Positions 20,399 through 64,000 of a stretch of 64,000 nucleotides of DNA are shown one piece after another. The stretch lies in assembly GCF_026151205.1 (NCBI RefSeq), contig NC_087076.1:13811675-13875674 (forward strand), given 5' to 3'. The notes under the pieces are model-generated. The model ran no database searches, had not been told where the DNA came from, and saw nothing but the letters and a program-made list of their open reading frames with translations. The translations under genes were made by a program, and so were the position numbers. Numbering within the stretch: the first letter of the stretch is position 1; every line of letters starts with the position of its first letter. The DNA comes from Bolinopsis microptera. Lineage: Eukaryota > Ctenophora > Tentaculata > Lobata > Bolinopsidae.

Positions 20399-21090
20399 TT
20401 ATTTGTTATATGTAGTGTTGAAAGTATTAAAAATACACCTTTTATAAAAATACGTCGAAAAGAATCCAGGGTGATACAGGATTGGAAAGTGCAGACTGTA
20501 TAATTTTTTTTCCAGCAGTGAGCAGCAGTCTGCAGTTAGCAGCAGTTTTTTTTGCACTATAGTCCTTCTGTGACCCCTGCCTCCTGAATTTTGTTTTACT
20601 TAATCAATATCAATATAAAATTGTTATGTTATGTTTGATCGACGATGTCAATCCATCTAATTTCTAATCGATATCGTTGCTTTGCGATGAACGACGCGAA
20701 GCAAGAATGCTAGTTTGCGCGGCGCGTCGAAGCGGCGAAGTCCTCCATATGTTATGTAAATTTAAGTTTATCATAAATCAGTCTGGTGGTGGTCTTTTCA
20801 TATTTTTGGTTTCATCCTTATGTTATTGACGATGTCAATTCTTCCAAACTCGGCGAGGCCCAGTAGCGCGAAAAGCATCATTGAGTGCGCGGCCCGGCCC
20901 AGTAACGCATTGCGCTACAAATCCTTTTGTGGCGAAGAAGCAGTTTACAAATTTTAATTCCAATTAGAAAAGTTTGAATAGCTTTTTAAATTTTTAAATT
21001 TTCGAATTCTAAAAATATAATTATGTTTTTTATCATATTTCTTAAAATTGAATATATATAGTAAAACAAATTTTAGTAAAACAAATTTAA
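20399..21090. repeat. segments repeated near 28008-28080
   Basis: TTATTTGTTATATGTAG...TGAAAGTATTAAAA (20399-20436) matches 28008-28043 with a few changes. AGTAAAACAAATTTTAGTAA (about 21061) matches about 28048-28080. The two blocks are about 640 bp apart here but adjacent at 28 kb, on either side of the retrotransposon. Confidence 0.5.
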
Positions 21091-22296
21091 ATTTTGGTAT
21101 TTATTAATAACAATCAAAACATATCATATCATAAAAATAAAGCCGCGCGTTGGTTGACTGCCTCAGTATGGTGAATAATTTAAGCTTGAAGGTGCCCTGC
21201 GCATTTACAGAACATTATGCGGCGATCACATGATCACGAGGACCTGTGAGCGCCAAATTTAATTTAAACTTTCTAGAAATCGTACATCACTACGAGTTAC
21301 TCATGCTTTTGAATTATAGGAGTGCGGATTGTCATGTATTTCATTCATTCATACTTAATCGGTTTAAAGCTGTATATTTAGAGCTCACTATTGTTTGAAC
21401 TATGAAAGCAGAACGTAAATAATGGACAATATACCGACGACAATACCAAGGACCCGAGTGCCGCATTGACTTTTCCGGATCCGTTTTTACCGAAGGCTTA
21501 TCCACCAGTTACTCATGCTGCATGTATAGTCTGATAATATTTTGTTTTATCTCTAGCAAGCATTCTGTAAGTTGGAGTGTCGTATTTATTATAGAAGAGC
21601 CAGCCAACCTCCGCATTACAATCTTTTGTATGCCAGGTTCGTTTATAAAATCTAATCATATAATAAGATTGATCCAATAGTCTAAGATGAACGGTATATC
21701 TTAGCTCATCGTTATTAAAATCCTAATGGATGAATTAATCAAGTAATGTTCCCTTCCAACACAACTAAACAACAAACAAATGCTTGCTCACCAGTGGTGA
21801 CGCAATCGTAGGGGCATGCAGTTGGTTCAGATAACTCTCACCCCGACGACAGCGTCGAGAAATTATCAAATGATGCATTTGCGCCATACTGGACACATTT
21901 TATATTTAATATTTTGTGGTTTGTAGAAATTAGTGTCATCTAAAGTATAGCTTAACTGGCGAGCAAGCATCGTCCCACTCGGCGGGGACGAAAATACCGA
22001 GTCCAATCACAGAAAGTTAACCAAAAGATAAAAACAAGAGCTCGGATATCAACAAAAATCACACGCTCCAGACGACGGGGGAAGAGAGGATAGGAAGTAA
22101 GCTGCTGGGCTCAACAAATTTTGATAATTGTAAACAAATTTGTTCTTGTGCCCTATAATAATTTGGTATTGAGGTATGACCCTGTACTGTGCGTGATAGT
22201 GAAAATGAAAGTGAATGTGAATCTGCAATGCGAACGAAATGAGTTATGGCCAGACGATTCTTCAATTTCAAAATAATAAAGTCAAAGGACTCTGTT

Positions 22297-25200
22297 TTAA
22301 AATACAAGCTCATTCTTATCGAAGTTTAATTCTGTCCATTCTAATTCTTCGTACCTGGACTGTATCTTGAGTAGCTCACTTTTCAGTGTTACTTTAACTA
22401 AGTTCGTTGACTTAGTAAAGCTTATCATACTGTCAATTTTTCGACAGTCGTTCCACATTTTTGTTGATTGATAAATGAAAGAGGAGGATGGGTTCGGGGT
22501 GATGAACTGGTCTGAACGTCTTTGTGATGGTGATCTGTGGAGTAAAGATAGGAGTGAGATTGGAGATTCTAATCTGACAATTTTGAACAGTTCTAATAGA
22601 CATGTGTATTTGTACAGGTTGTGGACGGTAAGAAGGCCGTTCTTGTTAAACAACGGCTTTGTATGCTCTTTTTCAAAGAATTCTCTTCCTAGGATTTGTT
22701 CATCTATACAACGTGTTCTGGCACATGTTCTAAATTTATCTAGATATGCTTCAAGGTCACCAAATAGTATTCTGATACATTTTTTCTGAGTGATGAAGAT
22801 AGGTTGAAGCATATTATTACTCGACCCACCCCATACCGATATTCCAAATCTTAGGTGTGACTCAAATAACGTGTGGTACAATTCTTTATGGTGTTTTTTC
22901 GGGATAACGTGTCGTATTCTACTGAGTCTTCCGATCTCACACCTAAGTTTCGAGTTGAGGGCTCTTATTTGAACATCCCATTTTAGCTTTTCGTCAATAA
23001 TAACACCTAAAAACTTGGTCTCTTTAACTTGCTTTATTACCGTATTATTTAGAGTTAGTATATATTCTGATTCGTTATCTGCCTCATTACCAGTAGCTGT
23101 ACGTGACGGATTGAAGTGGATGTAGCAGCATTTCTTTATATTTATATGTAATAGATTGCATTTCATGTACTGGTGTAACAAACGGAGAATTTCGTTTGCT
23201 CTTGCATACAGTTTTTTTCTACATCCATCTACTACGAATATGTTTGTGTCATCTGCAAATAGTATGAACTTGCCCAGATCAGTTGTTCTAAATAAGTCGT
23301 TAACATATATTATAAATAGCAAGGGTCCGAGACAAGAGCCTTGGGGAACTCCAAAGAGAACAGGCAGCTTGTCAGACTCTTCGCCCAGTACAGAGACATA
23401 TTGATATCTATTAGAGAGATAACTAGCGATGAGTCTATTGGCGTTTCCACGTATTCCATAGTTGTCTAGTTTATTAAGTAGTTTTTCATGTGAGATCGTG
23501 TCAAACGCTTTAGATAGATCAATAAATATTCCTAGTACATGCAGTTTTTTGCTAAGACAGGATTCTATGTAATTCACTGAGGAGTTGAGGGCATGGCTTG
23601 TGGAGTGATTTTTTCTAAATCCGTACTGGTTCTCGTAAATCATTTTCTGGGACTGAAAGAAGCTATACAGTCTGTTGTAAATAATTTTTTCAAATATCTT
23701 ACCAAAAACAGCTAAAGTTGATACTGGCCTATAGTTTTCCAGCAATTCCTCATTATCCTTCTTATAGATCGGACTGATTCTCCCAGTCTTTAAATCATCT
23801 GGGAATACTCCATTCCTCATGCATTCACTGTATAATAAAGATAGTATAGGACAGATCACTTTAGACGATTCTTTAACTACATGTATTGGGATGTCGGATG
23901 ACTTCCCATTCTTCAGTTCAGATATAATCATTCTAACCTCGTCAGCTGTACAGTCATTAATGAAAATACTGGACGTGTTTGCTCTAGGCAGGTAGTCATA
24001 AAAACTAGGAAGATTGTTAATAGTTAGTTCTCCAATTTCATTATATGCCCCGTTTAAATTAGACGCTAGAGAAACAAAATACTTATTAAATTCATTGGCT
24101 ATTACTCTACGATTGGTTATCTTCTCATTGTTTATAGTAAACAGTGGTTTTATTTGCCGTTTCTGTTTGCCCCGTATTTGATTAATCAGTTCCCATGTCT
24201 TCTTACTATTACCGTTTGTGTCTGCAAATTTTCCCATGAAATACTTAGTTTGAACATCTTTGCGATCTTTTTTAACCATCCTTCTATAATCCTTATAAGT
24301 TTTGTATCTATAACGTTTTTCACAACATTTCAAGCATTGACATGTTCCACCTTTATAATCAGTTTCACCGAGTTTACATTTTTTCTTTCTAACTTTAGCC
24401 CAATTGTCATAGAGCTGGTGCTGATGCTTGATTTTGGCTATAAGCCCAGGTGTGATCCATGGGTTATTTTGTGTAGTTCTTTTGGAAGACTTAGGGGTTG
24501 CCAACTTACACGTTTTATCGATACTACTTTTGAAAACATCATGAAATACCGTGAAGTTGTCAATTACTTTATTCTCTAATTCATGTTCCAAGTCCTTTAC
24601 AAAAGAGGTAACATTAGACTTACAGTAGTCGTAATATTGTTTATATTTTAGGTTACTCTTAGTGGATCCCATACTCTTTTCAAATATTTGAAAGACTGGT
24701 GAGTGGTGGGATATACGATCAGTAAGTGTGCCTGAGGCTATTATACTCTCTACATCGTTAGTTATAATATTGTCAATACACGATACTTTACAACCTGGCT
24801 TCTCATGAGTTGGCAGAGATATTAGGGGAAAAAATCCTCTACTGAACAGGACTTCCTCATAACGTTTTACAATCGCATTATCCTTATTATGTAGATCAAT
24901 GTTGAAATCACCTGCCAGGTAACTGCATTTCGGCAAATTATCGAGAATTGCTGAGAGTTCTAATAATGCAACATTTACATCACCACTTGGAGGGCGATAC
25001 ACTACACCAACAGTGACCGGAGTATTCTTGCTGCTTATCGTAACAAATAGAGTTTCTAGGTTTTCAGATATATGGGACAAATTGCCATTTACTGTAGCAC
25101 TGAGGGTATCACATACATAAAGAGCGACTCCAGTGCCTTTTCTTTTATCTTGCAAAGTGTTTTGGTAGAAACTATTGTATCCAGTCAGTTGGTAAAGGTC

Positions 25201-25665
25201 ACTTAATTCGGGGCCTTCATTTGTTTCTGCTAAAGCAATGATCGAAAATTTCATATATCTCTGTAGTTCTATTGCCAGAGTATCAAAGTTAGATTTATTA
25301 CCATCGATATTTTGAAATAATAATGATGAGTACTCGTTCATTTGGTTGCAAAATGTTTTATTAAATTCTTTAACACTATATGGGTTACAGTTATTGAGTA
25401 ATCGGTTGATGTTTACAAGTGTTTCATCAATGTCAGTACTATTATTTTCAGAGTCAGTATCTTCATATATAAACGGATTGTAACGAGTACTTGCCAAGTG
25501 TACACAGTTAGGGCAGTAAAAATCTTCATATATTTTGTTTGTACTGGATTTAGTATAGCATTTATGGTGCATAGCACAGTCACACCTACAACATTCAGCA
25601 ATGAATTGGCCAATGGAAATGAATTTTGTACAGACAGGGCATACCTCTTTGGTCAATTTATTCAT
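22297..25665 (-). CDS. retrotransposon ORF2: PHD finger, APE endonuclease, reverse transcriptase
   Basis: The 1122-aa protein makes the nick and copies element RNA into DNA at the target. A Cys/His zinc finger of PHD type fills residues ~9-57 (CPVC...CCRCDCAMHHKC...CPNC). The EEP/APE endonuclease follows at about 100-330, with FQNIDG, ALAETNE and LAGDFNIDL. Its last motif reads SHHSP, where SDH is usual. Reverse transcriptase spans about 570-850, with NYRPVSTL, FIDLSKAFDT, GVPQGSCLGPLLF and the catalytic FADD. The start ATG overlaps the ORF1 stop, so translation probably depends on ORF1 termination. The frame is intact throughout. The first 60 residues being a PHD finger is an addition to the usual APE-RT layout. 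Confidence 0.92.
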   Translation of the reverse strand: MNKLTKEVCPVCTKFISIGQFIAECCRCDCAMHHKCYTKSSTNKIYEDFYCPNCVHLASTRYNPFIYEDTDSENNSTDIDETLVNINRLLNNCNPYSVKEFNKTFCNQMNEYSSLLFQNIDGNKSNFDTLAIELQRYMKFSIIALAETNEGPELSDLYQLTGYNSFYQNTLQDKRKGTGVALYVCDTLSATVNGNLSHISENLETLFVTISSKNTPVTVGVVYRPPSGDVNVALLELSAILDNLPKCSYLAGDFNIDLHNKDNAIVKRYEEVLFSRGFFPLISLPTHEKPGCKVSCIDNIITNDVESIIASGTLTDRISHHSPVFQIFEKSMGSTKSNLKYKQYYDYCKSNVTSFVKDLEHELENKVIDNFTVFHDVFKSSIDKTCKLATPKSSKRTTQNNPWITPGLIAKIKHQHQLYDNWAKVRKKKCKLGETDYKGGTCQCLKCCEKRYRYKTYKDYRRMVKKDRKDVQTKYFMGKFADTNGNSKKTWELINQIRGKQKRQIKPLFTINNEKITNRRVIANEFNKYFVSLASNLNGAYNEIGELTINNLPSFYDYLPRANTSSIFINDCTADEVRMIISELKNGKSSDIPIHVVKESSKVICPILSLLYSECMRNGVFPDDLKTGRISPIYKKDNEELLENYRPVSTLAVFGKIFEKIIYNRLYSFFQSQKMIYENQYGFRKNHSTSHALNSSVNYIESCLSKKLHVLGIFIDLSKAFDTISHEKLLNKLDNYGIRGNANRLIASYLSNRYQYVSVLGEESDKLPVLFGVPQGSCLGPLLFIIYVNDLFRTTDLGKFILFADDTNIFVVDGCRKKLYARANEILRLLHQYMKCNLLHINIKKCCYIHFNPSRTATGNEADNESEYILTLNNTVIKQVKETKFLGVIIDEKLKWDVQIRALNSKLRCEIGRLSRIRHVIPKKHHKELYHTLFESHLRFGISVWGGSSNNMLQPIFITQKKCIRILFGDLEAYLDKFRTCARTRCIDEQILGREFFEKEHTKPLFNKNGLLTVHNLYKYTCLLELFKIVRLESPISLLSLLHRSPSQRRSDQFITPNPSSSFIYQSTKMWNDCRKIDSMISFTKSTNLVKVTLKSELLKIQSRYEELEWTELNFDKNELVF

Positions 25666-27899
25666 GGGTACGGTACGTAACCTTCCCCATGTTGAGTCGC
25701 AGCAGCAGCAGGAGAGGAACCACCCATCGTCTGGGAGTATAAGCGATTGTCAACTTTATCCGATCTCTTCTTCCTTCTATCAGTCCCTCCATTCATCCTT
25801 AAAAGTATTGTATTACGTATAAGAACCCCCAGTTTTGCTGTACCACTCCAATTGAGGTGTAAATAGTCCGGTCTCTGGTTTCGTCCAATGTTCCTAGAGA
25901 ATTGCTGGCTTAGGAGCCCAGCCTCATCACAGAACATGTCAAAACCAGGTACCAAAGTCACACCAAAGTTGGAATGGAGCAGCTCCTTAAAAATTAATTC
26001 ATTATAATGTGCAACTTTACGATTTAGCTCAACGAGTTTGGTTGGCAGCAGCGGACACACAAATATATTTGCTTTGGGGTTAAGCGCTTGGATCATTTCT
26101 ACTTTCTGAACAAATGGTTTAAAAACATTGTTCTTTATATCAGCGGTATTTTTGATCTCAGGTTTCCTGATATCATTTATACCACACATCAAGAGAACAT
26201 TCCTGTATCCACATGAAACTGTAGGATTTATATCCCCCACTACCGGAGCAAAATACTGTTTTCCGGGGAGCCACTGCCCAAATGATTTTTTGGGGTCCAG
26301 CCCGAATTTGAGACCACCAGTATGCGAGTCTCCGATGATACATGTAGAGTTCCTGTTTCTAAAGCTAACTGAACGAAAAGTTAGGCTGTATCTCACCCCA
26401 CCAGTTATTGCCCCATCCTCGATACAGTGGCTGTAGAACTCTTGGCTGCGTCGAGTCATGCGATACATGGATCTTGGCACACATGTATGGTCATGAGCCA
26501 TATGATCCGTCTTCTTATCAAAGAATTTGATGTTGCACTGGCCTCCAATAGAAACAGTGAAAATTTCGGATTCAGGGTGGATGGTAGTTTCATCATCCGA
26601 GTGTTTCGGTAGGGAGCCATCCTCTTTGAAGCGATTGATCAGCAGGCTATTGATCTTCGGTTTTTCACCACTACAGAATGCACCATTGATTTTGTCCACT
26701 AGATTGGAGAAGCTAGTTGAAGCTAGTTGGCCATTGGATGACTTGGAGCCATTATACTTGTATGGTTCTCCCAAAGAATACACAGCACGAGCTCCCTCCA
26801 CAACAAAATCCTCGTCAAGTGATTGGCAGGCAAGGAGGAGAGTTTCCTGCTCTTCTGTGGTAATAAACTCTTCTATAGCGCCTACAACTGGTTCTTCTTT
26901 TGATTGAAGATGCTCATTAGCTATTAGGTCTGGGCCAGGGGCAAGTGAAGAACTGGTAATTTGGACGTTTAAATGGTCAGAAGAAGCCAAGGAATTTCGC
27001 TCAAGAGTGTTCAAAGACTGTCTAATGGCTGTTAGCTCCTGATTCGTCTCCAGAGACTGCTTGGAATTTAGCTCCTGGAGATTCTTCTCTATTTTTTCCA
27101 TGAGATCGTTGGTCTTGGAGGAAGATTGAGCACTTACTTGAGGAGTAGAAAAGTCCTGCAGTTGCTTGTTCAACACTTTAATCTGTTCTGTTAGGCCACT
27201 ATCAGACTCAGAAACCTTTCCGAGTGAAGAGTCAACTGAAGTTTTCAGCTGCTTTAGATCTCCTTCCATCACTTCAACCCATGCTGGAGCAGTGCCCTTG
27301 TCACTTACCAGTAGGTGCTTGATATGGAGGTCAAGGTTCTGGATGGCAGCAATGCTGTCGTTTAGACTGTCAAAGTCAACCTTTGCAAGCTTTTCACCAA
27401 AAGCTGTGATGGTATTAAGCTTCTCTGTGGCAATAGCTGTCTCACACTGACTGTTAGATTTTTGAAGTGTCAGAGTGTTCCTACACACATAACACACATC
27501 TTCAGCAGTTTCGAATGTGGGGATTGGTGAAACCAAACAAAAAGGGCAGTGCCAATTGGTCATGCTGTTGACATTTTTCTGGTTGAGTCCATTCATAGTT
27601 AGACAGTCTATGTGCCAATATTGCTTGCACTTTACACAGTCAATCTTCCATGACGATATTGACTTACTACATGGACATTTCGTCTTGTCCCTGTGTGAAC
27701 TGTCAAACTTTGGGGGTGTTACATCACTGTCTACAACAATAGTTTCACAAGATACATCCTTTCCCTTCGCCTCTGGTCCTGGAGTGTTGTTCTTGATTCG
27801 GGACTTTGCCTTTTTGTCCGCAGGGGAAGGAATCCGAGAGTTATTGGTGATAGATGAGGCTCTCTTGTTACTCTTGTTGTTGTCACCCATACTCAGCAA
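25662..27899 (-). CDS. retrotransposon ORF1: PHD finger, coiled coil, AlkB-like dioxygenase, SGNH hydrolase
   Basis: A 745-aa ORF1 protein, presumably part of the element RNP. A basic, Ser-rich start is followed by a zinc finger of PHD type (residues ~74-140, CPCS...CVKC...HIDC...CPFC...CYVC) and a heptad-rich stretch (~160-310). Residues ~365-512 match AlkB-type 2OG-Fe(II) dioxygenases: NSLLINRF, then HSD (H433, D435) as metal ligands, TVSIGG, distal H491 and the 2OG-binding RYSLTFR (R503, R509). Residues ~518-700 match SGNH/GDSL hydrolases: GDS (S525), GIND (N575) and the Asp/His pair DYLHLN (D678, H681). Esterase-bearing ORF1s are known from CR1/L2-type elements; an AlkB domain joined to one is unusual. 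Which substrates either domain acts on is not shown by the sequence. Confidence 0.85.
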   Translation of the reverse strand: MLSMGDNNKSNKRASSITNNSRIPSPADKKAKSRIKNNTPGPEAKGKDVSCETIVVDSDVTPPKFDSSHRDKTKCPCSKSISSWKIDCVKCKQYWHIDCLTMNGLNQKNVNSMTNWHCPFCLVSPIPTFETAEDVCYVCRNTLTLQKSNSQCETAIATEKLNTITAFGEKLAKVDFDSLNDSIAAIQNLDLHIKHLLVSDKGTAPAWVEVMEGDLKQLKTSVDSSLGKVSESDSGLTEQIKVLNKQLQDFSTPQVSAQSSSKTNDLMEKIEKNLQELNSKQSLETNQELTAIRQSLNTLERNSLASSDHLNVQITSSSLAPGPDLIANEHLQSKEEPVVGAIEEFITTEEQETLLLACQSLDEDFVVEGARAVYSLGEPYKYNGSKSSNGQLASTSFSNLVDKINGAFCSGEKPKINSLLINRFKEDGSLPKHSDDETTIHPESEIFTVSIGGQCNIKFFDKKTDHMAHDHTCVPRSMYRMTRRSQEFYSHCIEDGAITGGVRYSLTFRSVSFRNRNSTCIIGDSHTGGLKFGLDPKKSFGQWLPGKQYFAPVVGDINPTVSCGYRNVLLMCGINDIRKPEIKNTADIKNNVFKPFVQKVEMIQALNPKANIFVCPLLPTKLVELNRKVAHYNELIFKELLHSNFGVTLVPGFDMFCDEAGLLSQQFSRNIGRNQRPDYLHLNWSGTAKLGVLIRNTILLRMNGGTDRRKKRSDKVDNRLYSQTMGGSSPAAAATQHGEGYVPYP

Positions 27900-27959
27900 A
27901 AGTTAAAACAAACAGCAAGCAAAAGTCAAAACAATCAGCTGTTAAAGCAACGTGTAAAC

Positions 27960-30900
27960 TTACGACACCCTTTTGAGGGAATTACGACATACTTTCCCTG
28001 AACTCAAATTATTTGTTATATAGCAGCGCTGAAAGTATTAAAACATAGTAAAACAAATTTTTTTAGTAAAACAAATTTATTATATTTTTAAATAATATTG
28101 CAATGATGCTTTGTAAATATAAAATATTATGTCATCATTGCATTTTTACTTTACTTAACTTCAGAATTGTTAGATTTTGAATATGCAATTTTCTGGCTAT
28201 TTTATTCATACTTTTAAAACTATGTGCGGTTGTACCAATTACGAGCAGAAAATTGTCAGGTGTAATATATTGTAATATATGGAGAATTATAATATTGGTT
28301 GTCCAACTCAAAGCTACGGGTGAAAGTCATGAATGGTGTAATCAAAACAAATATGTTATTCACAAATCTAATTGAACACTTCAAACTCGATGTGTTTTTA
28401 TATTATCATATAACACCTTTAAATTAATCCTACTTGTAAATAAAATAACTGGAATGGTTTTACTGAGAAAAGAAAATTTTATTATTAATCACCAATTCAA
28501 TACATAATCAATAAATATATATCCGAATAAATTTGATTTAGAATTAAATGATACAAGTATGCTAGCAGCTATCGCGCTTGTATTTAATAAATATTCACGC
28601 TGTTAAAAATAGTTCTTACCACACCGCCACTCACATTAGCACAGTTGGTGAACGGACCCAGGCGCTGTTAAGCTTTTATGAGCCCTGGTTGACTGCTGAG
28701 AGTGGCGACGGGTCTGACATTAATTTTATTTTAGTTTTCCCTATATTCCAATAAAATTTTAGTTTTGAGTTAAATGATTTTTACACGATATTTAAGTTAC
28801 AGCTGCTTGCTTAAAAATTGTTAAATATGCTCGCTATACGCTTAATTTTTAGATACCGTATCATGTATATGTACATATCAGCTCATAATACCAAATAACA
28901 ATAATAAATAAATTAAAAGCATGAAGAGGTCCGAAACCAATTCAAGCATGACACCAGGTTGAATACATTGTCATCGGAAGCTGCAAGCTTATTAACGTTT
29001 GATTCCATGTTGATCCGTTATTATGCAGTCACCTTCAGGCGGTGTCGACGGATCATGCGAAAAGGGTTTTTGACAGGCTGTGCCCTTACCATAATTAGAC
29101 TGAACCATTGCCTGATCCGATGTAAACATGAGTGGTGGATAAGTGAGCTGCGCAAGCGCTCGCGCATTTGTGTCGCTCTGACAAATAGCGCTTGAATAAT
29201 TTAGCTACCAAGACGTAAATCGCGCGTTACGTAAAGTATTATTTTTCCCTTTGGATTTAAAGAGAACGGTACACCCGCGTGTAACCTTAGCTTCTTCAAT
29301 GGTTTGTGAGCGTGTGTGGTGGAGTGAGTGTATAATGTAATGTATACACCATCTCACATGTATTGTATCTTTTACCTTATCATCTGTTATCACTTACATC
29401 TTAAATCATCTGTTATCACTGTACATGTCATTCCATCACACGATCACAATCACGTACTTGCTGTTTAGTGGATGTTTTAAGTTTATTGAATAGCAGATCG
29501 AGTAGTGTTGTATATATATAGATTTTGATTCTAATTTTAGTCGAGTATTTGAACAATTTGTTGTCGTTTAGCCATTTTTGATTAATAAATTTTATGAGAC
29601 AGTTTTCTCACATATTTACCAATTTTGTCAGCATGAATAAGAAGTTGTTACTTTGAAACGTCGTTTATCCTAACAGTGCAATATCATTTGTCGCAAATCA
29701 GAATAATCAGAAACTATTTGGAAAAACCCAAAACTGTCTATATAATGTAATGATTGAATGAATCTTTTTTTTGTGGTGTATATATGATGTGAGTGACAGG
29801 TGTAAAATGTAAAAGATATAAATATAAATGGGGGTCTTTTCATAGGAAAGTGTTCAAGTTTAAGTCCTGCCAGTTAATATTGTCAGGTTGGTGTTGAGCC
29901 TTCATGATAGAATGCTTCAATTGGGATTTAATTGAGCCTAGTGAACCTATTTTACCACGTGCATTTGACTGTTCAAGAAACGTATTCCATAGAAAGATTT
30001 TTGTTATACTAAAATTGAATTTTGCTTTTTTGTATCCTTGTATCCTTAGTACATCATTGTAAGTTCAAATATATACATGATTATCATTTCAAGCAGATAT
30101 GGACTGCTTTAAAACTTATATTTTGGAAAAAGTTTGTTTCAGTAACCATTGAGAACCAGTGGCCTTTTGTAACTGCATCTTCAACCTCAGTTTCATTTCG
30201 AAACGTCAAGTGACTGGTAAAGTCAAATATTTTGTACTATGAACATTTATTCTAGTATTTTGAAGTGTATTAATTGTTAAGATCTTTAATTTTGTTAGCG
30301 GGGTGTAATTTTGTTAGGTAGGTATTAAAAATTATTAGTCTTTTGGAAATTAAAGTTCTTGATCTTTACTATTTATAAATTTTAATAACAATAAATTGTT
30401 ATTAAAATGCTCATTGTAGCCAGTTATTTTAAGATTTTCATCATCATCATATCATTTCAAATATGCGGTTTTATAAATAATGCTGCTTCGGCAGGCCTCG
30501 TGGCTCGGCCCCTCAAAGTTTCAGTCACTGAAACGTTCAGGTTAAGTAGCAGGGTAATGCTTAGTGCTTCTTTGCTTTGAGCCTGCGTTCTTCAGTGGAG
30601 TTTCTTTGATTGAATCCCCTATATAATACTAAATATATGAACCAAGATTTTTGGATCTAACCAGCACTAATCTTGTGTACACGGACTATCACTTTCAGTT
30701 TAGGTAGATTCCTCCAATAACCATTATACTGGCCTTTCACTGTCTACTGAATATGCTGCGATGGAAATTGTTTGTCAAGGAATCACAGAACTAATGTCAG
30801 GAAAGGTTAATTGTAGTCCGCTGCGAATGTTACACCATGTTTTGGAGGGTCATGTCGAACATTGTTGGACCAGTGCAGCATAGTGTTTTCACCATTTTTG

Positions 30901-41186: not shown

Positions 41187-42660
41187 GTCAGTACCGTGTT
41201 GTGTGTCACGTGATACCATGACGTGTCACGTGATACCACGACGTGTCACGTGGTTTATTCAAGTTAACTGAAGGGGCTGTCCTTCAAATAGTGCCACAAT
41301 ATCCAATCTGGAATTATGATCAGGCCGTAACTGCCCCACATCGGCTTTAGTATTCCATTTATGGTGGTGGTATATAATATTATACCATGATTCACGTCAT
41401 ATCAGAAGCGTTGCGATACATGAAGTTTCGTGCAAGTCAGCACTTCTTCACATCGTTTTAAATTTAAAGATGTAGTCCACAATGCGATTAAATTATACCA
41501 TAGATATCATATCACACACAAACTTTTAACTTTAAAAATGAACTCTAAAGTCTAGATATGCAATGTGCAACCCTGCTGTCAGTTTTCACGCGCTCGGAAA
41601 TATTCTAAAACTACAGGCAACCTTGTTTTGTTTGTGGGGCACCCACTCTACATCAATAACCTATAAATCCTCGGACCTCGATACCTAAGTAGTAAGTAAG
41701 GAGGCTAACTCCACCTTCAGGGCTAACGTCTAATGGGATTCCCAGCTCTAGAGCAGGGATTGAGCTTATAACTGAACTATGTTCTGGGCTAAGTTTATAT
41801 ATAATCTACCAGAGGACTAGGCCTTGATTGATTGTGGACGGCCACATTCCCCCTCAGACAGGCAACCTTATCGGTCCTTATTTGGTCTAATACAGGTTTT
41901 TAGGCTCGTCAAAAGAATACTACGCACTCATTTCATCAAAATAGGGGATGTAATAAATCTTATTAAACCCAGGAACACGTAATAATAATAAACTGTAATG
42001 ATTATACCAGAATTAATATCATCCAGCACTGTACTACCTGGATCAGAGCATTAGTTCTGTAGTTTAATTAGTTAATTAGTGAAGGTATGCAGGCAGTAAA
42101 TTAGTTAATTAGTGCAGGTATGCACGCAGTGGAGCTCGGTAATACCTGCACTGGGGATAATAATAAATGTAGCTTCCTCCTAATTGCTCCTCCTAATGTA
42201 GTAAATACAGTGTATATTTTATTATACAGTGCTGCCCTGGTGCTGTATACAGTCTGAGATGTGTTCTGTGAGAAGTTGGAAATGAAATTGGAAATGGTTT
42301 GGTTGACTAACTTAGCAAGTTGTAGGAACAAATTTTTGTACGGTTATTTTGAGATTCTTCTGTGCAGAAGAATAAAATTTCGTTAATGAAGAATATTTTT
42401 TATTTACATAAAATCCGAGTTAAGTTAAGTACTGTACTGCTAGTTTATATGTCTCAATGACTGGCAAAAAGATATCACCATTCACAATCATCATCATAGG
42501 CAGTCAAATATTGTTCTTGTATTAAACAAAATAAAATATCCATGAATAAAATAAGTATGGTATGACATAAATGTTGCGCTAAAAATCACAAAACAGTCCA
42601 TAGCCATAATAATCATAGAGTAGGCTGTGTGCAGTCTCCAAAGTATTACCAAGCGTCCAT
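41187..42660. other. region between Abi exon 6 and the receptor cluster
   Basis: Follows the Abi exon 6 donor. CACGTGATACCA(T/C)GACGTGT is tandemly repeated at about 41207-41250. No SH3-coding exon was found on the plus strand. From about 42400 the sequence matches the 3' flanks of the receptor genes (GACTGGCAAAAAGATATCAC, also near 43985, 50459, 52011 and 54613). Confidence 0.6.
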
Positions 42661-42760
42661 TACTCCTTCAGCTCGCTTAAAAAATCTCATACACATTATT
42701 CTCTTCCTCATTCTTCTCCTCTAACTCTGCTTCTCCGCACTTTGTATCACTCGGATTCGC

Positions 42761-51760: not shown

Positions 51761-52210
51761 GTTGAAAGCCAAATCAGACTTTCACCACTGAAACCAGAGT
51801 TATGGAAAGTGGATTTAGCTGATTGAAAAGAGAAATTGATCACATCATATTCGCGTGATTGAAATCAACTGTCAACTAAATGACACGTACTCTGAATGGT
51901 TTAGTCCTAGTACTCCTTAGTTCTATAATTACACTGGCATTACTTGGTAGTTAGTCTTGTTTCTTGTTTAAAACTATTTAGTTTTATTTACTTTAAGCAA
52001 ATAATCCAATGACTGGCAAAAAGATATCACCATTCACAATCATCATCATAGGCAGTTACATATTTTTCTTAAAAGTAAAATAAAATATCCTTAAATATGT
52101 ATGGTATGACATAAATGTTGTGCTAAAAATCACAAAAACAGTCTCGATCCATAGCTATAATAATTATAAAGTAGGCTGTGTGCTGTTTCCAAAATATTAC
52201 CAAGCGTCCA

Positions 52211-56772: not shown

Positions 56773-56891
56773 CTTAAATACCTTATGACATATTTATGTT
56801 GTGCTAAAAATCACAAAAACAGTCTCGATCCATAGTTATAATAATTATAGAGTAGGCTGTGTGCTGTTTCCAGAATATTACCAAGCGTCCA

Positions 56892-57023: not shown

Positions 57024-60000
57024 TTCCACCACTTAAGCGTTCATCTATGACACACCCCACAACACTTACCATCGTTTGTTTGGGGACTGGTTTGTAAGCC
57101 AGCCAATGTTTACGAATATAATATTAATAATTTTATTACATAATCATAAATATATATCATAAATAGATCAAATCTGAAACACAAATTTGCACGCAGTTAA
57201 TAAATTTATTAAAAAAAAAAAAAAAAAAAGGTTTATTGATAAAACAAAATATGGAGCACTCTGTGCTTCCAACAGCCTTTCAGACTAGCGCTAAGTTTGT
57301 TAGGGACTGATTTAGGATATCGTAGATATTGCTATGCCATGCCATTAGTTTGGATATGTAGTGTTTGTGATTGTTGAAATCGATTAATTACGGTTTGTGC
57401 TGATAGGAAAATAGTGATAGTGGGGAATGTGGCAGTGTAAATATGGACCTGGAATTTAGGATGTGTGGCTTATCCATTAATATTAGTTGCCGCTAGTCTG
57501 TGATCAGTTTGTTCTGGTTTTTTTGTGTGCAAATATATATTCATAGTTTATTTTTGTAATATCATATAATATATAGTACTTAATAATAACCATATGACTA
57601 ATAACTGATTTACTAATTAACTAATTAACTAATTCACTAAACTGATATAATGACCGTTGTGTCCAGTAACTTTCAGACACGTTGTGACCTTCTTAGACCT
57701 GGAATATTATGTAATAAGAAACTGGGCCACGTGTCATCGTCATTTTCACTCTGCAGGTTCAAGAGCATGCGTTTTGTAGCCGATTTAAAAAGGTTTATGG
57801 AAAAAAGTGTGGGTAGGGTGCTTACATTTGCATTTACAGCATAAATTGAGAGTAAAGGTCCTTTGAAGAACATCGAAGATCTGAAATGTGTGGTGTTGTA
57901 CTCGGCTAACCAGGATGCTGCAGTCACGTGATCTGAGTTTGCAGTGGGTGCATTTTCTGGGATAGTCATACAGATTTGTTGAGGGACTGAGCTGCGGAAA
58001 TGTTTGATTCGGTGCATGAGAATTAGTGTGTTTTTTACAATAACACTGTGCACCGTGAGTATACCATTGTTATTGAAAAATTGTTTTGTGTGTTCTGGCA
58101 GTCGACCGTCTTTGTAAAAGTAATTAATGTGACCTGGCATTACTGCCCTGATACCCTGTTTTTGTCGTGAGAAGAGTGATTCAATGTGATTTTTTGCTGC
58201 AAACCCCCATACAATTGAACAGAAGTTTAAATGCGATTGAACAAAACTTTGATATATCTGTAGCCTTATTTGAATCGATAGGTGACGTTTTATTTTATAC
58301 ATAATTCCTACATACCGCATCATTTTTGATCTAACAGCTGCTATATGCTTAGACCATGTTAGTTTATCATCCATTATAACGCCAAGGAACCGTGCTTCCC
58401 TTTTACGTTCTAATTGTGTGTCTGCAATATGAATATTTGGAGTATTATCAGTATTTCTAACACCGAAAAGCATATAGCAGGTCTTTTTTAGATTAAGTGC
58501 AAGTCCATTACAGTCAACCCAGCGTACAAACTCGTGGGAGAATTGGTTGAATTTTTGTATAACATCGTTTGCATTTTTGCCTTTTATAATGATGTTCGCA
58601 TCATCAGCGTAGAGTATAAACTTTATCATACTGTTGATATTTGGCATATCATTGATGTAGATTAGGAATAACAAAGGTCCCATAATACTGCCCTGTGGAA
58701 CTCCGTATGTAATAGGTTTAAGAGCTGATTTAATACCATTCAAACATACATATTGCTGACGTGTGCTCAGGTAGGATTTAAACCATTGCAAAGCTTGCCC
58801 ACGGATTCCATAGTGCTGGAGTTTGTCAATCAATACATCATGAGACAAAACGTCAAAAGCTTTACTAAAGTCGACTAGGAGTAGTAGAGCAACTTCCTTT
58901 TTGGCAAGGGAATTCAGAATCGTGTGTTGAGCATCCAAAAGAGCATGCTCACAGGATCGGCCTGGCCGGAAGCCATATTGCCCTTCAAAGAGCGAGCCTT
59001 TCTTGTCAAGGAAGTCCATTACTCTATTATGCATAAGTTTTTCATACAATTTGGAAAAGGTGCACAGCAAAGATATGGGTCGATAGTTAGTGGCGTCGGA
59101 TTTGCTGCCTCCTTTGTGAATTGGTATAACTTTAGCTATTTTGAGAGATGATGGGAAGATACCTTGACTAAATGATGTGTTAATGATTATGGACAAGACT
59201 TTACAGAAGGAGGGGCAGTCTTTTACAATTTTTAGGGGTTCAATTTTAGTGTCTTGAGTGGATTTATTCTTAAGCTTGCTAATAATTTGTTCAACTTCAC
59301 TTTCGGTAGTTGGTCTTACGAACATAGACTGCGAAGCTGGGCTGCTAAGGTAATGTTTAAAACCCCCTGGATCGAATACAGTACGCGCGCTGATCGCATC
59401 TTTGATTTTTGTGGCAATGTTGGAGAAGTAAGAGTTAAAGTGCTCAGCTACATCACTGTCACTATTTATGATATTTCCGTCGGCGTTTTGGAGTTTAATT
59501 TTGTTATGAGATTTAGATTTTCTGCCAAGTAGAGTGTTGATCAGCTGCCATTGTTTCTTTGAACAATCTTTATACTTATCAAATTGTGTTTTGTAGTATT
59601 TGTCTTTTGCCTTATTGACGTGCTTGTCGCAGAATGCCTTATGCTTTTTGTAAGCCTTGTAGTTTTCCTCCGTTGGGTCCACTATTTTGGCATGGAATAA
59701 TTTGTTTTTACGAGCACATGCAATTTCAAGCCAGGGTAGCATAAAAGGTTTGGGGTCCTGCCTTTCAAATTTGCGGCGCACATGATTGGTTTTCACTGGG
59801 TATGCCTCATCATAATGCTGACCGTATATTTCAATAAATTTGTTATATTGTTCATCAGCACAATTTTCACGTGTGACTTCCTCCCACATTTCGGATCCAA
59901 TTAATTCTATAAATTTAAGGTTGTTCGACTCGTTAAACATACGTTTTTCAATATTCATTCCATGGTCGACTCTGTGTCGTTTGTTTCTACTCCCTGCAAT

Positions 60001-61400
60001 GTGGCTGTATTGCCCAAGTGAGATAGTAACAAGAGTGGCTAGATGATCAGACAGGTCAACAGTAAGAACATTGCAGCTGTGTGTGTGTTGTACGTTATTG
60101 CTGTAAACATGATCTATAAGAGTGGCACTGTGATCAGTGATACGTGTGGGACGTGAGACTAGCTGAAAGAAACCGTATTTAGTCATAGTTTCAATCAAAT
60201 TTTGACAATGTTTGTCAGTATCATAATGTGTAAGATCTACATTGAAATCACCGACTAATATAGTATGTTTTCTCGAGTGCCTTTCCATGCCGTGTAATAG
60301 GGAGTCAATGAGTTTGTTAAAATTATCAGGGTTTTTTGATGCTGGTGACCGATATATATTGACGATTATCTTTGTTTTGTTAAAGCTTTTGCAGTTATGG
60401 AGTTTTACCAACATGAATTCACCACTCTTGTCTGTCACATCAAAGTTTTGGGGAAAGAATTTTTCAATATTTTCAGACTCGCATACGCGCGTATTGATAT
60501 AAATTGCTAAACCCCCACCACGACCAGAACTACGTATTGGATCTCGTAACAGTGGTTCATAAAATCCCTCAAGCACTAGGTCATTAATACCATTAGGAAG
60601 CTTATCCTGCAAGAGATTAGTCTCGTTAAAACAAAGGACATCATACTTCGAGTACGTGAATATATCTTCTCTTAATTTGTCTACGTTTTTAAGAAGTCCC
60701 CGTATGTTTAAGGTAAATATCTTAAGATCACATGGTCCTGACGAACTTACATTTGTCGGCTCCATGTAATTGCAGCTAACTAAAATATCAGAAATCTCAT
60801 TCCAATATTCGAGTTCCTGATCTTGGTCAATTGTATTTCCTATTTCGTTAATCAACTGATAGCGATCGTAGGGATTGTGGATTACGCCGGTGTGAGTATG
60901 TGTATGTAATGAGTATAGCTGATAGCAATGTACATAGTATCCCGGGATCATATTTTCACAGCAATTTCTGCATCCTAATAAGTCGGAGTGACATTTGGTA
61001 TGTACTTTAGATTCGCACCAGTGGCAGGTTTTCAGGTTGGCGGGGGAGTAAATCCAGCCATTACAGCATGTGCATTGAACTTTAAATTTAGGACCTATGA
61101 CGGGCCCTTGTCTCGGTGGCTTTGCCGAGGGGCATGCATTTACTGGTAAGGCGCTGGAAATACAGTCATAACATATCCAGGCAGAGCCAGAATCTACAAT
61201 TATTTTTGCCTCAGACTTAGATAACTTCATGCATTTCATATGTTTTATTTTGTCGCAGTGACTGCAAATTAGGAACGAACGTGCTTTAGGAATACGTGTA
61301 TTACATTTGTTGCAACGCTGAGATTCGTTCATAGAACTATGAGATAATGTATTATATTCGTTAGTATTATAGTTATATTATGATATATTTAAGAGAGTAT
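57024..61400 (-). mobile_element. non-LTR retrotransposon 2 (ORF2 intact)
   Basis: Minus-strand element with its 3' terminus at about 57024, inside the receptor tail sequence. The 3' UTR is about 650 bp and includes an A run on the plus strand at 57212-57229, which is poly-T for the element and so not its tail. ORF2 spans 61332-57673. No ORF1 lies directly upstream. The next ORF1-type frame is at 63056-64000, beyond a 1.7-kb stretch of other sequence. Whether they are one element split by an insertion or two elements is open. Confidence 0.75.
57673..61332 (-). CDS. retrotransposon 2 ORF2: zinc fingers, APE endonuclease, reverse transcriptase
   Basis: An intact 1219-aa protein. Residues ~7-58 form a PHD-like finger (CNKC...CSHC...HMKC...CYDC), and a second Cys/His cluster lies at ~87-136 (CTCC...CHWC...HTKC...CRNCC). 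The APE endonuclease spans about 205-440 (LNIRGLLKNVDKL, CFNETNL, VGDFNVDLTH) and ends in the canonical SDH. RT runs from about 740 to 1000 (NYRPISLLCTFSKLYEKL, QYGFRPGRS, LVDFSKAFD, GVPQGSIMGPLLF, YADD). A CR1/L2/Jockey-type enzyme is likely; it is clearly different from the element at 22-28 kb. No stops or frameshifts are seen. Confidence 0.92.
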   Translation of the reverse strand: MNESQRCNKCNTRIPKARSFLICSHCDKIKHMKCMKLSKSEAKIIVDSGSAWICYDCISSALPVNACPSAKPPRQGPVIGPKFKVQCTCCNGWIYSPANLKTCHWCESKVHTKCHSDLLGCRNCCENMIPGYYVHCYQLYSLHTHTHTGVIHNPYDRYQLINEIGNTIDQDQELEYWNEISDILVSCNYMEPTNVSSSGPCDLKIFTLNIRGLLKNVDKLREDIFTYSKYDVLCFNETNLLQDKLPNGINDLVLEGFYEPLLRDPIRSSGRGGGLAIYINTRVCESENIEKFFPQNFDVTDKSGEFMLVKLHNCKSFNKTKIIVNIYRSPASKNPDNFNKLIDSLLHGMERHSRKHTILVGDFNVDLTHYDTDKHCQNLIETMTKYGFFQLVSRPTRITDHSATLIDHVYSNNVQHTHSCNVLTVDLSDHLATLVTISLGQYSHIAGSRNKRHRVDHGMNIEKRMFNESNNLKFIELIGSEMWEEVTRENCADEQYNKFIEIYGQHYDEAYPVKTNHVRRKFERQDPKPFMLPWLEIACARKNKLFHAKIVDPTEENYKAYKKHKAFCDKHVNKAKDKYYKTQFDKYKDCSKKQWQLINTLLGRKSKSHNKIKLQNADGNIINSDSDVAEHFNSYFSNIATKIKDAISARTVFDPGGFKHYLSSPASQSMFVRPTTESEVEQIISKLKNKSTQDTKIEPLKIVKDCPSFCKVLSIIINTSFSQGIFPSSLKIAKVIPIHKGGSKSDATNYRPISLLCTFSKLYEKLMHNRVMDFLDKKGSLFEGQYGFRPGRSCEHALLDAQHTILNSLAKKEVALLLLVDFSKAFDVLSHDVLIDKLQHYGIRGQALQWFKSYLSTRQQYVCLNGIKSALKPITYGVPQGSIMGPLLFLIYINDMPNINSMIKFILYADDANIIIKGKNANDVIQKFNQFSHEFVRWVDCNGLALNLKKTCYMLFGVRNTDNTPNIHIADTQLERKREARFLGVIMDDKLTWSKHIAAVRSKMMRYVGIMYKIKRHLSIQIRLQIYQSFVQSHLNFCSIVWGFAAKNHIESLFSRQKQGIRAVMPGHINYFYKDGRLPEHTKQFFNNNGILTVHSVIVKNTLILMHRIKHFRSSVPQQICMTIPENAPTANSDHVTAASWLAEYNTTHFRSSMFFKGPLLSIYAVNANVSTLPTLFSINLFKSATKRMLLNLQSENDDDTWPSFLLHNIPGLRRSQRV

Positions 61401-63055: not shown

Positions 63056-64000
63056 TCAGGTGCCAAAGTGGCCAGGGATTGGATAGGATATCATACGTTT
63101 AAAGTGCTCACGTAGAGGTAGGGGTCCACGCCTGAACCCCAGTCCAATGAGCACACAGTTTACCCAGCAATCTGATAATACACTCTGTCCAATATAGTTA
63201 AGATGTAGACCGTCACGAGCGAGGTGAGCGAGACTAAAACTTGAGTTGTCGAAGAGTCTGAAGTTGTCATGGTGAAGGGAGCACTTAAACATGAGTTCAT
63301 TAAGGTACTGGATAATGTCGTTGTGGGTGTTGAATCGGTCAGCATGTATCGATAGTGGACTGACTGCATCGAATAAGAACATAGTGCGCGGGAACTGTTC
63401 TATGAAACTTCTGATGTGATTATGCAGCAGGACGGCACTCGCTCTGTTTTTCTGGATATCGTTTATGCCAGCACTTATGAGTACAATGTCGGCTTGTTGA
63501 ATCGATTCCCGGTGTTCCTTTAAGTCGCGGAGGAAAAATAAGTTTTCCCGGAACGCTATGACAGGTGAACGAAATTGAGAACAGTCAAAATTACAGTTTT
63601 TGCTGTCAGACAGTATCAGCACTCGTTTGGTCTGGTTCACTTTATGATGGGGTGGAGGTCGCAGCTGATGGCTGCTAGATTTTCTGGAATGTGCCGAGGC
63701 CAACTGTCTAAAGGTTAAGCTGATTCGAGGACCTTCAAAATCCGCCTGAGTTTGCGGAGGAACAGCATGGTCAAAAAGGTCCTGCGATTTTCGCGTCATA
63801 GTGTAACAGTCGCCGTGTTGAACTGTCACGGTTTCATCGCGATACTCGCCTGGAGGACGTCTACGAAAAACTAAATCCCTTTTACCCCCCAGGGAAATGG
63901 TAAGTATAGTGCTGTCGGGTACTATACACGATTCATCATCGGAATGAGGAGGTATACACGAGACGTGTGATTCATATTTGGTGATCATGCAGCTATTGAA
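63056..64000 (-). CDS. retrotransposon ORF1, C-terminal part: AlkB-like dioxygenase plus SGNH hydrolase (runs off the window)
   Basis: The frame is open to the window edge, so the 5' part is missing. It aligns domain by domain with residues ~416-700 of the ORF1 at 25662-27899. An AlkB-like part has FNSCMITKY, then HSD (in PPHSDDE), ILTISLGG, the distal His in DLFDHAV and RISLTFR. The SGNH part has LSDSKN (block I Ser kept, Gly changed), ISAGIND and RDGLHLNY. Sequence identity to the other ORF1 is low outside the motifs, so the two are long separated. It could be the ORF1 of retrotransposon 2 or of a different element. Confidence 0.82.
   Translation of the reverse strand, partial: FNSCMITKYESHVSCIPPHSDDESCIVPDSTILTISLGGKRDLVFRRRPPGEYRDETVTVQHGDCYTMTRKSQDLFDHAVPPQTQADFEGPRISLTFRQLASAHSRKSSSHQLRPPPHHKVNQTKRVLILSDSKNCNFDCSQFRSPVIAFRENLFFLRDLKEHRESIQQADIVLISAGINDIQKNRASAVLLHNHIRSFIEQFPRTMFLFDAVSPLSIHADRFNTHNDIIQYLNELMFKCSLHHDNFRLFDNSSFSLAHLARDGLHLNYIGQSVLSDCWVNCVLIGLGFRRGPLPLREHFKRMISYPIPGHFGT

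Follow-up and report, generated by a model that had tools for sequence, protein, structure and literature searches.

An AlkB-type dioxygenase joined to an SGNH hydrolase in the ORF1 protein of LINE retrotransposons of the ctenophore Bolinopsis microptera

The stretch of DNA analyzed here (the window; 64,000 nucleotides of contig NC_087076.1 of Bolinopsis microptera) carries on its minus strand a whole LINE copy of ~7.0 kb (21058..28043), designated family A1, whose approximate ends were placed where its identity to other copies stops. By blastn, it is 99.74% identical over 6949 nt to one copy elsewhere in the genome (L009) and 98.5% and 97.6% identical to two others (L011 and L028, respectively). 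Its 5' UTR (27891..28043, blastn limits) is 83-85% identical to those of families B and D over the first ~90 nt and was predicted to fold no better than shuffled sequence (z 0.65). ORF1 follows, with 742 amino acids plus a stop when read from the first ATG at 27890 (25662..27890), or 745 codons when read from a TTG (25662-27899); we number residues from the ATG, which corresponds to the residue numbers of the preliminary description minus 3. ORF2 (1122 aa; 22297..25665) lies directly behind ORF1, its start overlapping the ORF1 stop in ATGA, and comprises an N-terminal Cys/His cluster recognized by eye, an endonuclease (Exo_endo_phos, 24850..25311; Pfam 5.7e-4, below cut-off), and a reverse transcriptase (RVT_1, 22996..23763; Pfam 4.7e-37), while the 3' UTR (21058..22296) terminates in short direct repeats (AAATTTGTTTTACTA-like). 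The initial assignment of the frame to a retrotransposon ORF1 is borne out by this arrangement, and the LINE whose ORF1 protein is encoded at 25662-27890 of the window was recently mobile.

From its N-terminus, ORF1 consists of a PHD-like finger, a coiled coil, an AlkB-type 2OG-Fe(II) dioxygenase, and an SGNH esterase, all encoded on the minus strand. We compared it with its relatives in a 17-row alignment of the window copy and 16 of 20 regions of this genome (L009, L012, L013, and L021 were left out, and the row of L026 lacks the N-terminus). Identity to the window copy is just 41-46% for ten of the 17 ORF1s, and over the whole ORF1 families A-D share 41-49% identity with one another; at 12 of the 61 places listed, spread over 10 contigs, a single open frame spans ORF1 residues 1-744/745. 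The PHD-type zinc finger (residues 72-118; 27537..27677) was recognized by eye from its C4HC3 spacing, with a Pfam PHD value of 0.1 in the window copy; the same Pfam model matches 7/17 ORF1s of families A-D at E<=0.01 (best 1.1e-5) as well as the ORF1s of families H (0.0068) and I (0.005), and gave no match at E<=0.1 in those of families E, F, G, and J. The predicted coiled coil spans residues ~146-329 (26904..27455), and its profile matches were solely to coiled-coil chains (e.g. 8a3k, 1.4e-4). When the ORF1 was used to scan viral contigs, none of the 17 pattern stretches returned was confirmed as a relative, and a tblastn search of phages with ORF1 gave a single match with an E value of 0.5.

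The AlkB-type domain occupies residues 330-512 (26355..26903), and its assignment draws upon Pfam, profile comparison, and an active-site alignment. The window ORF1 matches 2OG-FeII_Oxy_2 over residues 361-506 with an E value of 3.6e-12 (47.3 bits versus a cut-off of 31.2), and all 17 aligned ORF1s match this model at E<=0.01 and also the phrog 'alkylated DNA repair', while TIGR00568 alkb reached E<=0.01 in seven of them, the window copy not being among the seven. A chance motif match was rejected, given the Pfam value and the matches in 17/17 relatives. The motif residues first described as H433, D435, H491, R503, and R509 are present and correspond in ATG numbering to the HxD iron ligands H430 and D432 (26595..26603), the distal iron ligand H488 (26427..26429), and the 2OG-binding arginines R500 and R506 of RYSLTFR (26373..26393); all five, along with the SGNH residues S522, N572, D675, and H678, are invariant in 17/17 ORF1s. 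A broader alignment of 20 AlkB rows was assembled from 16 element and four non-element rows, with near-identical copies left out and family F (HSDSE) included. The HxD...H iron site and the RxxxxxR 2OG site occur in all 20 rows, E. coli AlkB included, and the equivalents of E. coli H131, D133, H187, R204, R210, and E136 are identical in 16/16 element rows and 4/4 others. The positions around this core do vary: the equivalent of E. coli D135, a residue taken to contact the methylated base, differs among the element AlkBs (D, N, or S), that of N120 is N in 12/16 element rows, and that of N206 is S in 16/16 element rows and N in the four non-element rows, the human proteins being outside this alignment. 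Thus, the substrate preference of the element AlkBs may differ. Estimates of dN/dS for the AlkB domain were 0.07-0.27 in seven pairs that have rows in common, and purifying selection has kept the domain along with its metal and 2OG-arginine residues. Because of the invariant metal and 2OG residues and this selection, the AlkB domain is, as judged from sequence, very likely an enzyme rather than a coincidence of motifs.

The SGNH (GDSL-like) hydrolase domain follows at residues 513-705 (25776..26354), and the motifs first reported behind the AlkB domain are found there as S522, N572, D675, and H678. Of the two Pfam models proposed as a check, 2OG-FeII_Oxy_2 passed its cut-off, as described above, whereas Lipase_GDSL_2 fell below its own in the window ORF1 (2e-4, 22.3 bits versus 32.9). 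The latter model matches 15/17 aligned ORF1s at E<=0.01 and six of the eight ORF1s L029-L036 at E<=0.1, none of these eight over the cut-off. In an alignment across families, the SGNH Ser and Asn are present in 13/13 rows; the L029 row ended before block V, a motif that the L029 sequence does contain, and family F has HxxH in place of the expected block V DxxH. Among solved chains, an SGNH profile matched several bacterial SGNH proteins most strongly (best 5.9e-10) and, further down at 6.8e-7, the zebrafish ZfL2-1 ORF1 esterase (4c1b_A). The conserved triad and this profile match back the SGNH assignment of a weak Pfam match. By sequence relationship, the protein is a type IV (esterase) non-LTR ORF1, with a ZfL2-1-related SGNH domain upstream of an endonuclease-reverse transcriptase ORF2. 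Overall, the claim that a LINE ORF1 joins an AlkB domain with an SGNH domain is supported by Pfam, the invariant residues, and purifying selection.

Within this genome, the pairing is not restricted to a single element but recurs in LINE lineages that diverged deeply and in Helitrons. AlkB and SGNH occur together in 11 LINE ORF1 families read in the B. microptera genome (two with the SGNH recognized by motif alone), and the reverse transcriptases of these families, compared within this genome, are as little as 24% identical. A second such ORF1, from LINE family W2, runs off the end of the window (63056..64000, minus strand; 2OG-FeII_Oxy_2 3.6e-16, Lipase_GDSL_2 5.7e-4, below cut-off); the ORF2 of this element (57673..61377, minus strand) contains a PHD finger, an endonuclease, and a reverse transcriptase 37% identical to that of family A1. 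AlkB is also found in the same open frame as Helitron_like_N in at least six frames of 2225-3388 aa, and among the 150 of 587 AlkB candidates listed, all six frames >2000 aa carry Helitron_like_N, L040 included, the domain by which they were recognized as Helitrons. Among 150 of 424 SGNH candidates listed, 10 match a listed AlkB in strand and frame length within 3 kb, two lie near a listed AlkB in another frame, and 138 have no listed AlkB. Family-A-like AlkB domains (47 bits) score below the listed range, so an SGNH place without a listed AlkB says little about true absence. The one stretch read upstream of such an unpaired SGNH match, the 478-aa L042 frame, has HNDDE...H...RYSLSFR, and its sole match was PF03171 at 7.7e-4, below cut-off, with no match to PF13532. 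Many SGNH elements in this genome may nonetheless do without AlkB. In the AlkB tree, the 16 element rows form one side of a branch supported at 84/63, or at 98/95 without family J, and in a tree with E. coli AlkB (family F left out) family J grouped with the non-element rows. From this branch support and the placement of family J, two acquisitions of AlkB are possible. AlkB and SGNH could form an accessory module that mobile DNA elements exchange, present in at least four deep LINE lineages and in Helitrons, that would clear polymerase-stopping lesions from whichever single-stranded intermediate (RNA or ssDNA) an element uses. We propose this tentatively, as falling somewhat short of an even chance, and rated it lower because few of the listed SGNH places are paired with a listed AlkB.

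To determine which AlkB type these domains resemble, a profile of 15 element rows was compared with solved chains. ALKBH3 was the best match (8jnr_A, 1.6e-28, profile positions 25-177 of 179), followed by ALKBH2 (~1e-22), ALKBH8 (1.6e-12), E. coli AlkB (2e-10), and ALKBH5 (~1e-3), a comparison that covers plant ALKBH5-type proteins as far as they are present in the PDB. A single family-E AlkB domain placed ALKBH3 first (4.7e-10) and gave no ALKBH5 match at E<=0.01 among the solved chains. A whole-ORF1 profile of families A-D differed: it scored highest with ALKBH8 and most ALKBH2 chains (2e-6 to 7e-6), ALKBH3 coming later at 2.9e-4, so the ranking of subgroups depends upon the rows used; the window copy alone matched solved AlkBs weakly (ALKBH2, 0.1). 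On these profile matches, the element AlkBs are nearest to ALKBH3/ALKBH2 and far from ALKBH5, although the human ALKBH3 and ALKBH2 proteins are free-standing cellular repair enzymes. ALKBH3 and ALKBH2 repair m1A and m3C. ALKBH3 has been described as an m1A eraser with a preference for single-stranded DNA/RNA (PMC10826226). This nearest likeness favors the clearing of lesions that block base pairing over the erasure of an m6A host mark. The preliminary interpretation is thus supported in part, for the AlkB-family domain and its fusion, while demethylase activity and protection of the element are putative.

The literature searched on AlkB/2OG dioxygenases and transposons gave no AlkB-bearing LINE, in agreement with the preliminary description, whose author knew of no published pairing of this kind, and a 'bring your own repair enzyme' strategy was not found in the literature searched on non-LTR or rolling-circle elements. 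Type IV ORF1s of CR1/L2/RTEX LINEs such as ZfL2-1 likewise combine a coiled coil with an SGNH hydrolase, and CR1/L2 ORF1s often have PHD fingers (PMC3905857; PMC4120745), but the available portions of PMC4120745 mention no AlkB, dioxygenase, or 2OG and those of PMC3905857 no AlkB or dioxygenase. The nearest case is a Phalaenopsis orchid Ty3/gypsy element whose encoded dioxygenase belongs to the AlkB family and has an HxD...H iron site (PMC9289625). That element is of the LTR type, carries its AlkB as a separate extra ORF near m6A demethylases (ALKBH5 type), is described from one plant lineage, and has no SGNH partner mentioned in the available portions of the same source, whereas the ctenophore elements are non-LTR, have an ALKBH3/2-like domain fused into ORF1, and belong to several families. 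Plant RNA viruses (Alphaflexi-, Betaflexi-, and Closteroviridae) are also genome parasites with their own AlkB, located in the replicase, but differ from LINEs in having no reverse transcription; RNA demethylation by viral AlkBs has been observed in vitro, and repair of the viral RNA has been proposed as their role (PMC9289625). Bdelloid rotifer retroelements share extra enzyme ORFs among distant element types of one genome, but those ORFs are GDSL or DEDDy exonuclease, with AlkB unmentioned in the available portions of PMC5408684.

We propose, with a probability of roughly one half, that this ORF1 of predicted PHD-like, coiled-coil, ALKBH3/2-type dealkylase, and SGNH domains demethylates N1-methyladenine and N3-methylcytosine in the element's own single-stranded intermediate. 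ORF1p would coat the element RNA like other ORF1 proteins, and its AlkB domain, with Fe(II), O2, and 2-oxoglutarate, would strip both modifications from the coated single-stranded RNA, allowing the reverse transcriptase to make a complete copy of it in target-primed reverse transcription. For the SGNH domain, the probable role is docking of the particle to membranes, which has been proposed for ZfL2-1 (PMC3905857), and in Helitrons the same domain pair would protect a single-stranded DNA intermediate. In vitro, the OTTR enzyme, a reverse transcriptase of the R2 LINE, is hindered by m1A; AlkB, which takes off m1A and m3C, relieves the block (PMC12140624). The Helitron AlkB frames count in favor of a need common to both element types. 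Helitrons are not known to have an RNA intermediate, and since they need no RNA template, template repair for reverse transcription cannot explain everything. The genome also has host frames matching ALKBH2 (L038, 3.9e-60) and ALKBH3 (L037, 2.5e-39), which count against the need for an AlkB of the element's own. Also speaking against the proposal are the weak match of the window copy alone to solved AlkBs, the different subgroup order given by the whole-ORF1 profile, and the many SGNH elements that may do without AlkB.

An unlikely, though by no means negligible, alternative is that the AlkB domain frees the element RNA of m6A or some other mark written by the host and so lets it escape host silencing. 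The AlkB protein of the Ty3/gypsy element is an RNA binder that demethylates m6A in vitro, such a role was proposed by its authors, and retroelements are affected by the m6A level (PMC9289625); on the other hand, human L1 retrotransposition is helped by m6A and suppressed by ALKBH5 (PMC7873242), the same AlkB domain occurs in Helitrons, and, with the element AlkBs as the profile, ALKBH5 trails ALKBH3/ALKBH2 by about 18-25 orders of magnitude. With ALKBH5 about 25 orders behind ALKBH3, an ALKBH5-like m6A eraser was rejected as first choice. Less likely still is removal of 1mA/3mC, including 3mC made by the host's DNA methyltransferases, from single-stranded cDNA, the nicked target, or Helitron ssDNA. 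The AlkB-bearing Helitrons, the second rank of ALKBH2 with the 15-row profile, and a krill paper listing alkB2 among DNA-methylation and repair genes (PMC11294593) would fit a DNA target, but the top match of that profile is ALKBH3, and the LINE AlkB resides in ORF1, the RNA-packaging protein, rather than in ORF2, which touches the target.

We consider it improbable that host tRNA, mRNA, or protein is the substrate, favoring translation or altering chromatin near the PHD finger. ALKBH3 does demethylate tRNA (PMC10826226), and a PHD-like finger accompanies AlkB in families A, H, and I and in 7/17 members of A-D; against this, no such match appeared in the ORF1s of families E, F, G, and J at the threshold above, and a mobile element should experience little selection for a host effect shared by all. 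A dead relic, or a module that does no more than bind nucleic acid, is more doubtful still, even if nucleic-acid binding is the main job of other ORF1 domains and the ZfL2-1 esterase turns over slowly (PMC3905857), since the metal ligands and both 2OG arginines are kept in 16/16 element rows and the active-site residues persist across families A-D despite the divergence of their ORF1s. The conserved active site and the low dN/dS led us to reject the dead relic. The fusion as an artefact of assembly or gene prediction, a reading in whose favor nothing was found, was likewise rejected and is given next to no weight, as the full-length open frame recurs at no fewer than 12 places on 10 contigs with ORF2 directly behind.

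If the proposed demethylation of the element's own intermediate is true, animal transposons have recruited nucleic-acid dealkylation, a capacity that the literature searched reports from plant RNA viruses and a single orchid LTR lineage, and this would suggest that methyl damage to RNA/ssDNA or host-written marks limit transposition. AlkB has already been added by hand for better reverse transcription of modified RNA, and an AlkB-bearing ORF1 may have practical value given this use (PMC12140624). A natural ORF1 with an intact AlkB site makes the restriction of LINE reverse transcription by base-blocking methylation testable in cells.

The open frame at 25662-27899 on the minus strand, in which the preliminary description had recognized a retrotransposon ORF1 joining an AlkB-like dioxygenase to an SGNH hydrolase, encodes 742 aa from its first ATG at 27890 (the start of our residue numbering), and the fusion is confirmed by its domains, conserved residues, selection, and recurrence. 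The AlkB half (2OG-FeII_Oxy_2, residues 361-506) matched Pfam above the cut-off at 3.6e-12, whereas the SGNH half (Lipase_GDSL_2, residues 552-683) was matched at 2e-4, which is below the cut-off. AlkB is preceded by a coiled-coil-like stretch and, ahead of this, by a C4HC3 zinc finger with PHD spacing (residues 72-118; Pfam PHD at 0.1 in the window copy and at E<=0.01 in 7 of 17 aligned relatives). ORF2 (22297-25665, minus strand, 1122 aa) contains RVT_1 (4.7e-37) as well as a match to Exo_endo_phos below the cut-off (5.7e-4), and it starts within an ATGA that also contains the ORF1 stop. This overlap (window 25662-25665; L018, L020, and L023 elsewhere in the genome) is common to subfamily A1, to which the window element belongs, and to B, C1, and D, while A2 and A3 have CTGA at the junction and ORF2 is nevertheless open. 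ORF2 may be translated by termination-reinitiation, with a non-AUG start perhaps used in A2. From comparison with copies elsewhere, the whole LINE extends over about 21058-28043 (minus strand). The nearest copy compared (L009) lies on a different contig and is 99.74% identical over 6949 nt, which suggests that the window LINE moved recently. The first ~90 nt of the element (window 27956-28045) share 83-85% identity with families B and D, unlike the ORF1 proteins, which are only 43-45% identical between A1 and these families. This conserved stretch is possibly a promoter or translation signal; folding of the 5' UTR as a whole showed nothing unusual relative to shuffled sequences (z 0.65).

Searching the 264.65 Mb genome (232 contigs) with ORF1 returned at least 61 matches (best 60 of 1095 candidates scored), 12 of the 61 listed spanning residues 1-744/745 without a stop. 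Short pieces aside, the listed matches were either 77-100% (family A) or 42-46% (others) identical. The window ORF1 was aligned with 16 of 20 extracted regions, and in the resulting 17 ORF1s from families A, B, C, and D, both the AlkB residues H430, D432, H488, R500, and R506 and the SGNH residues S522, N572, D675, and H678 are invariant. With 2OG-FeII_Oxy_2, the genome yielded at least 151 matches (best 150 of 587 candidates scored); 114 of the 150 listed lie in frames of >=500 aa, and 12 of the listed places were examined in sequence. In eight of the 12 (L029-L036), SGNH motifs come after AlkB within a single frame; six of the eight have a Pfam SGNH match at E<=0.1 and none has one above the cut-off, while L033 and L035 have no such match at E<=0.1 and were assigned by motifs only. 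A ninth (L040) is a Helitron-type frame. The remaining three have AlkB without SGNH in frame. Two of these are probably host genes, since they match ALKBH3 (L037, 2.5e-39) and ALKBH2 (L038, 3.9e-60), and the third (L039) is a 296-aa AlkB frame that precedes, at a distance of 712 nt, a distinct SGNH-like frame (Lipase_GDSL_2 0.0022). Overall, 11 AlkB-SGNH LINE ORF1 families were examined (A-J and W2, the latter at the window end), with an RT frame behind or close behind ORF1 in 10; family I, whose ORF2 was recovered only as its first 319 codons, gave no RT match. By RT the families form four groups (A-D with H; E with G; F with W2; J) that share 24-43% identity with one another, and judging from this divergence the pairing spans LINE lineages separated long ago.

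The W2 AlkB-SGNH ORF1 runs on the minus strand from 63056 to beyond the window edge, and its ORF2 (57673-61377, minus strand) bears a PHD. A partial ORF2 at 55630-56793 (within 55475-57817) is near-identical to the C-terminal part of W2 ORF2, about 2.04 kb off, and by this likeness is a truncated or tandem copy. The neighbouring genes look animal, with a glypican match (3.9e-10) and ephrin-receptor-like repeats; repeated gene-like units with ephrin-receptor-like/TNFR-like repeats occupy 42415-57817 with LINE pieces in between, and an RT fragment with DUF6451 (45478-46719) is apparently of a further LINE type.

SGNH frames were also searched on their own. Lipase_GDSL_2 identified at least 150 places (best 150 of 424 candidates), including multicopy frames of 478-479, 485, 521-523 aa, and other lengths. 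Ten of the 150 listed lie within 3 kb of a listed AlkB match of the same strand and frame length, two are near a listed AlkB match in another frame, and 138 have none, a number that does not give the share of SGNH elements without AlkB because both listings cover only the best-scoring candidates and all listed AlkB matches score above family A itself. The one such unpaired place examined in sequence (L042, a 478-aa multicopy frame) has very divergent HNDDE and RYSLSFR motifs ahead of SGNH, and this AlkB-like stretch gives only a sub-threshold 2OG-FeII_Oxy match in Pfam.

We aligned 16 element AlkBs with three host or unassigned ones and E. coli AlkB. In E. coli numbering, all 20 rows share H131, D133, H187, R204, R210, E136, and T208, and Y76 is kept in all 19 rows reaching it. 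Position N206 is S in 16/16 element rows and N in the four others; at N120, 12 of the 16 element rows have N and the remainder S or T, and D135 varies (D, N, or S). A profile of 15 element AlkBs ranked ALKBH3 (1.6e-28) above ALKBH2 (about 1e-22), ALKBH8 (1.6e-12), E. coli AlkB (2e-10), and ALKBH5 (about 1e-3), and the family-E domain by itself matched ALKBH3 at 4.7e-10. A whole-ORF1 profile of families A-D placed ALKBH8 and ALKBH2 on top, and the window ORF1 by itself matched only ALKBH2, at 0.1. AlkB dN/dS was 0.27, 0.16, 0.15, 0.14, 0.12, 0.15, and 0.07 in seven pairs with shared rows. Since the element rows fall on one side of the AlkB tree with support of 98/95 without J and 84/63 with it, the tree suggests either one capture followed by spread or two captures.

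The AlkB stretch also seems to have been exchanged between subfamilies. Identity of A1 to A2 is 92-100% over the 5'-most ~1500 nt, falls to 88% in the bin that follows, and is 64-82% beyond it, the break lying near the AlkB end; the ORF2s of the two are 75% identical, yet their ORF1s 88%. Between C1 and C2, identity is 96-99% at the 5' end, drops to 72-87% over 600-1800 nt, where the coiled coil and AlkB lie, and returns to 84-99% downstream except for the last bin (73%). Mosaics whose breakpoints fall close to the ends of the AlkB domain were observed for L014 versus the window and for L020 versus L022; template switching or recombination between subfamilies is suggested as their origin.

AlkB is not confined to LINEs. 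Among the matches listed, six AlkB frames exceed 2000 aa, and each of them also encodes Helitron_like_N, in the open frame of AlkB and 3.6-4.5 kb downstream of it. In the 3366-aa frame of L040 (G000:C12:8336200-8340200), SGNH and then AlkB lie N-terminal to Helitron_like_N, whereas in LINE ORF1s AlkB precedes SGNH. Judged from coordinates, three more of the six likewise have SGNH ahead of AlkB within the frame, as does a fourth, whose frame is interrupted by one stop; the sixth has no SGNH among the matches listed. Listed frames of 719, 813, and 1012 aa share the SGNH-first order.

LINE ORF1 proteins package element RNA, and the methyl groups of N1-methyl-A and N3-methyl-C are located on the base-pairing face. 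We infer as the simplest chain that ORF1p would coat the element RNA, its AlkB domain would remove pairing-blocking methyl groups, and ORF2p could then copy the cleared template further. The demethylase/repair role proposed in the preliminary description is partly supported: domains, residues, selection, and recurrence stand, while RNA packaging by this ORF1, activity, substrate, and benefit remain inferred. Packaging of LINE RNA by ORF1 is also described in PMC3905857, and PMC12140624 reports that m1A impedes the OTTR enzyme, an R2 (LINE) reverse transcriptase, that AlkB treatment strips m1A and m3C, and that full-length tRNA capture gains only modestly from it. ALKBH3, the top match of the profile of 15 element AlkBs, is described as an enzyme that favours single-stranded DNA/RNA (PMC10826226). 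For the SGNH half, a role may be borrowed from the zebrafish LINE ZfL2-1, whose esterase binds membrane and hydrolyses slowly (PMC3905857).

For an m6A-erasing AlkB, the orchid Ty3/gypsy element (PMC9289625) is a direct precedent, but this reading fits the sequence of the element AlkBs less well, and m6A is helpful for human L1 (PMC7873242). The Helitron frames, from elements presumed to move via single-stranded DNA, fit the clearing of methyl groups only if what the elements share is a single-stranded intermediate of any kind. The same frames also leave room for the alternative that AlkB acts on DNA.

Parts of this picture have been described. Among mobile or viral genomes, AlkB is known from plant RNA viruses and from a Ty3/gypsy lineage of orchids (PMC9289625), a platyfish SGNH gene mobilised by a Helitron has been published (PMC4021074), and esterase-type ORF1s are established. 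Among the top-ranked matches of searches in the full-text literature, no title or passage describes AlkB in a LINE or Helitron, which does not prove absence, as subscription papers and Repbase Reports lay outside the scope. More surprising than the fusion in the window element is the recurrence of AlkB-SGNH across LINE lineages and Helitrons.
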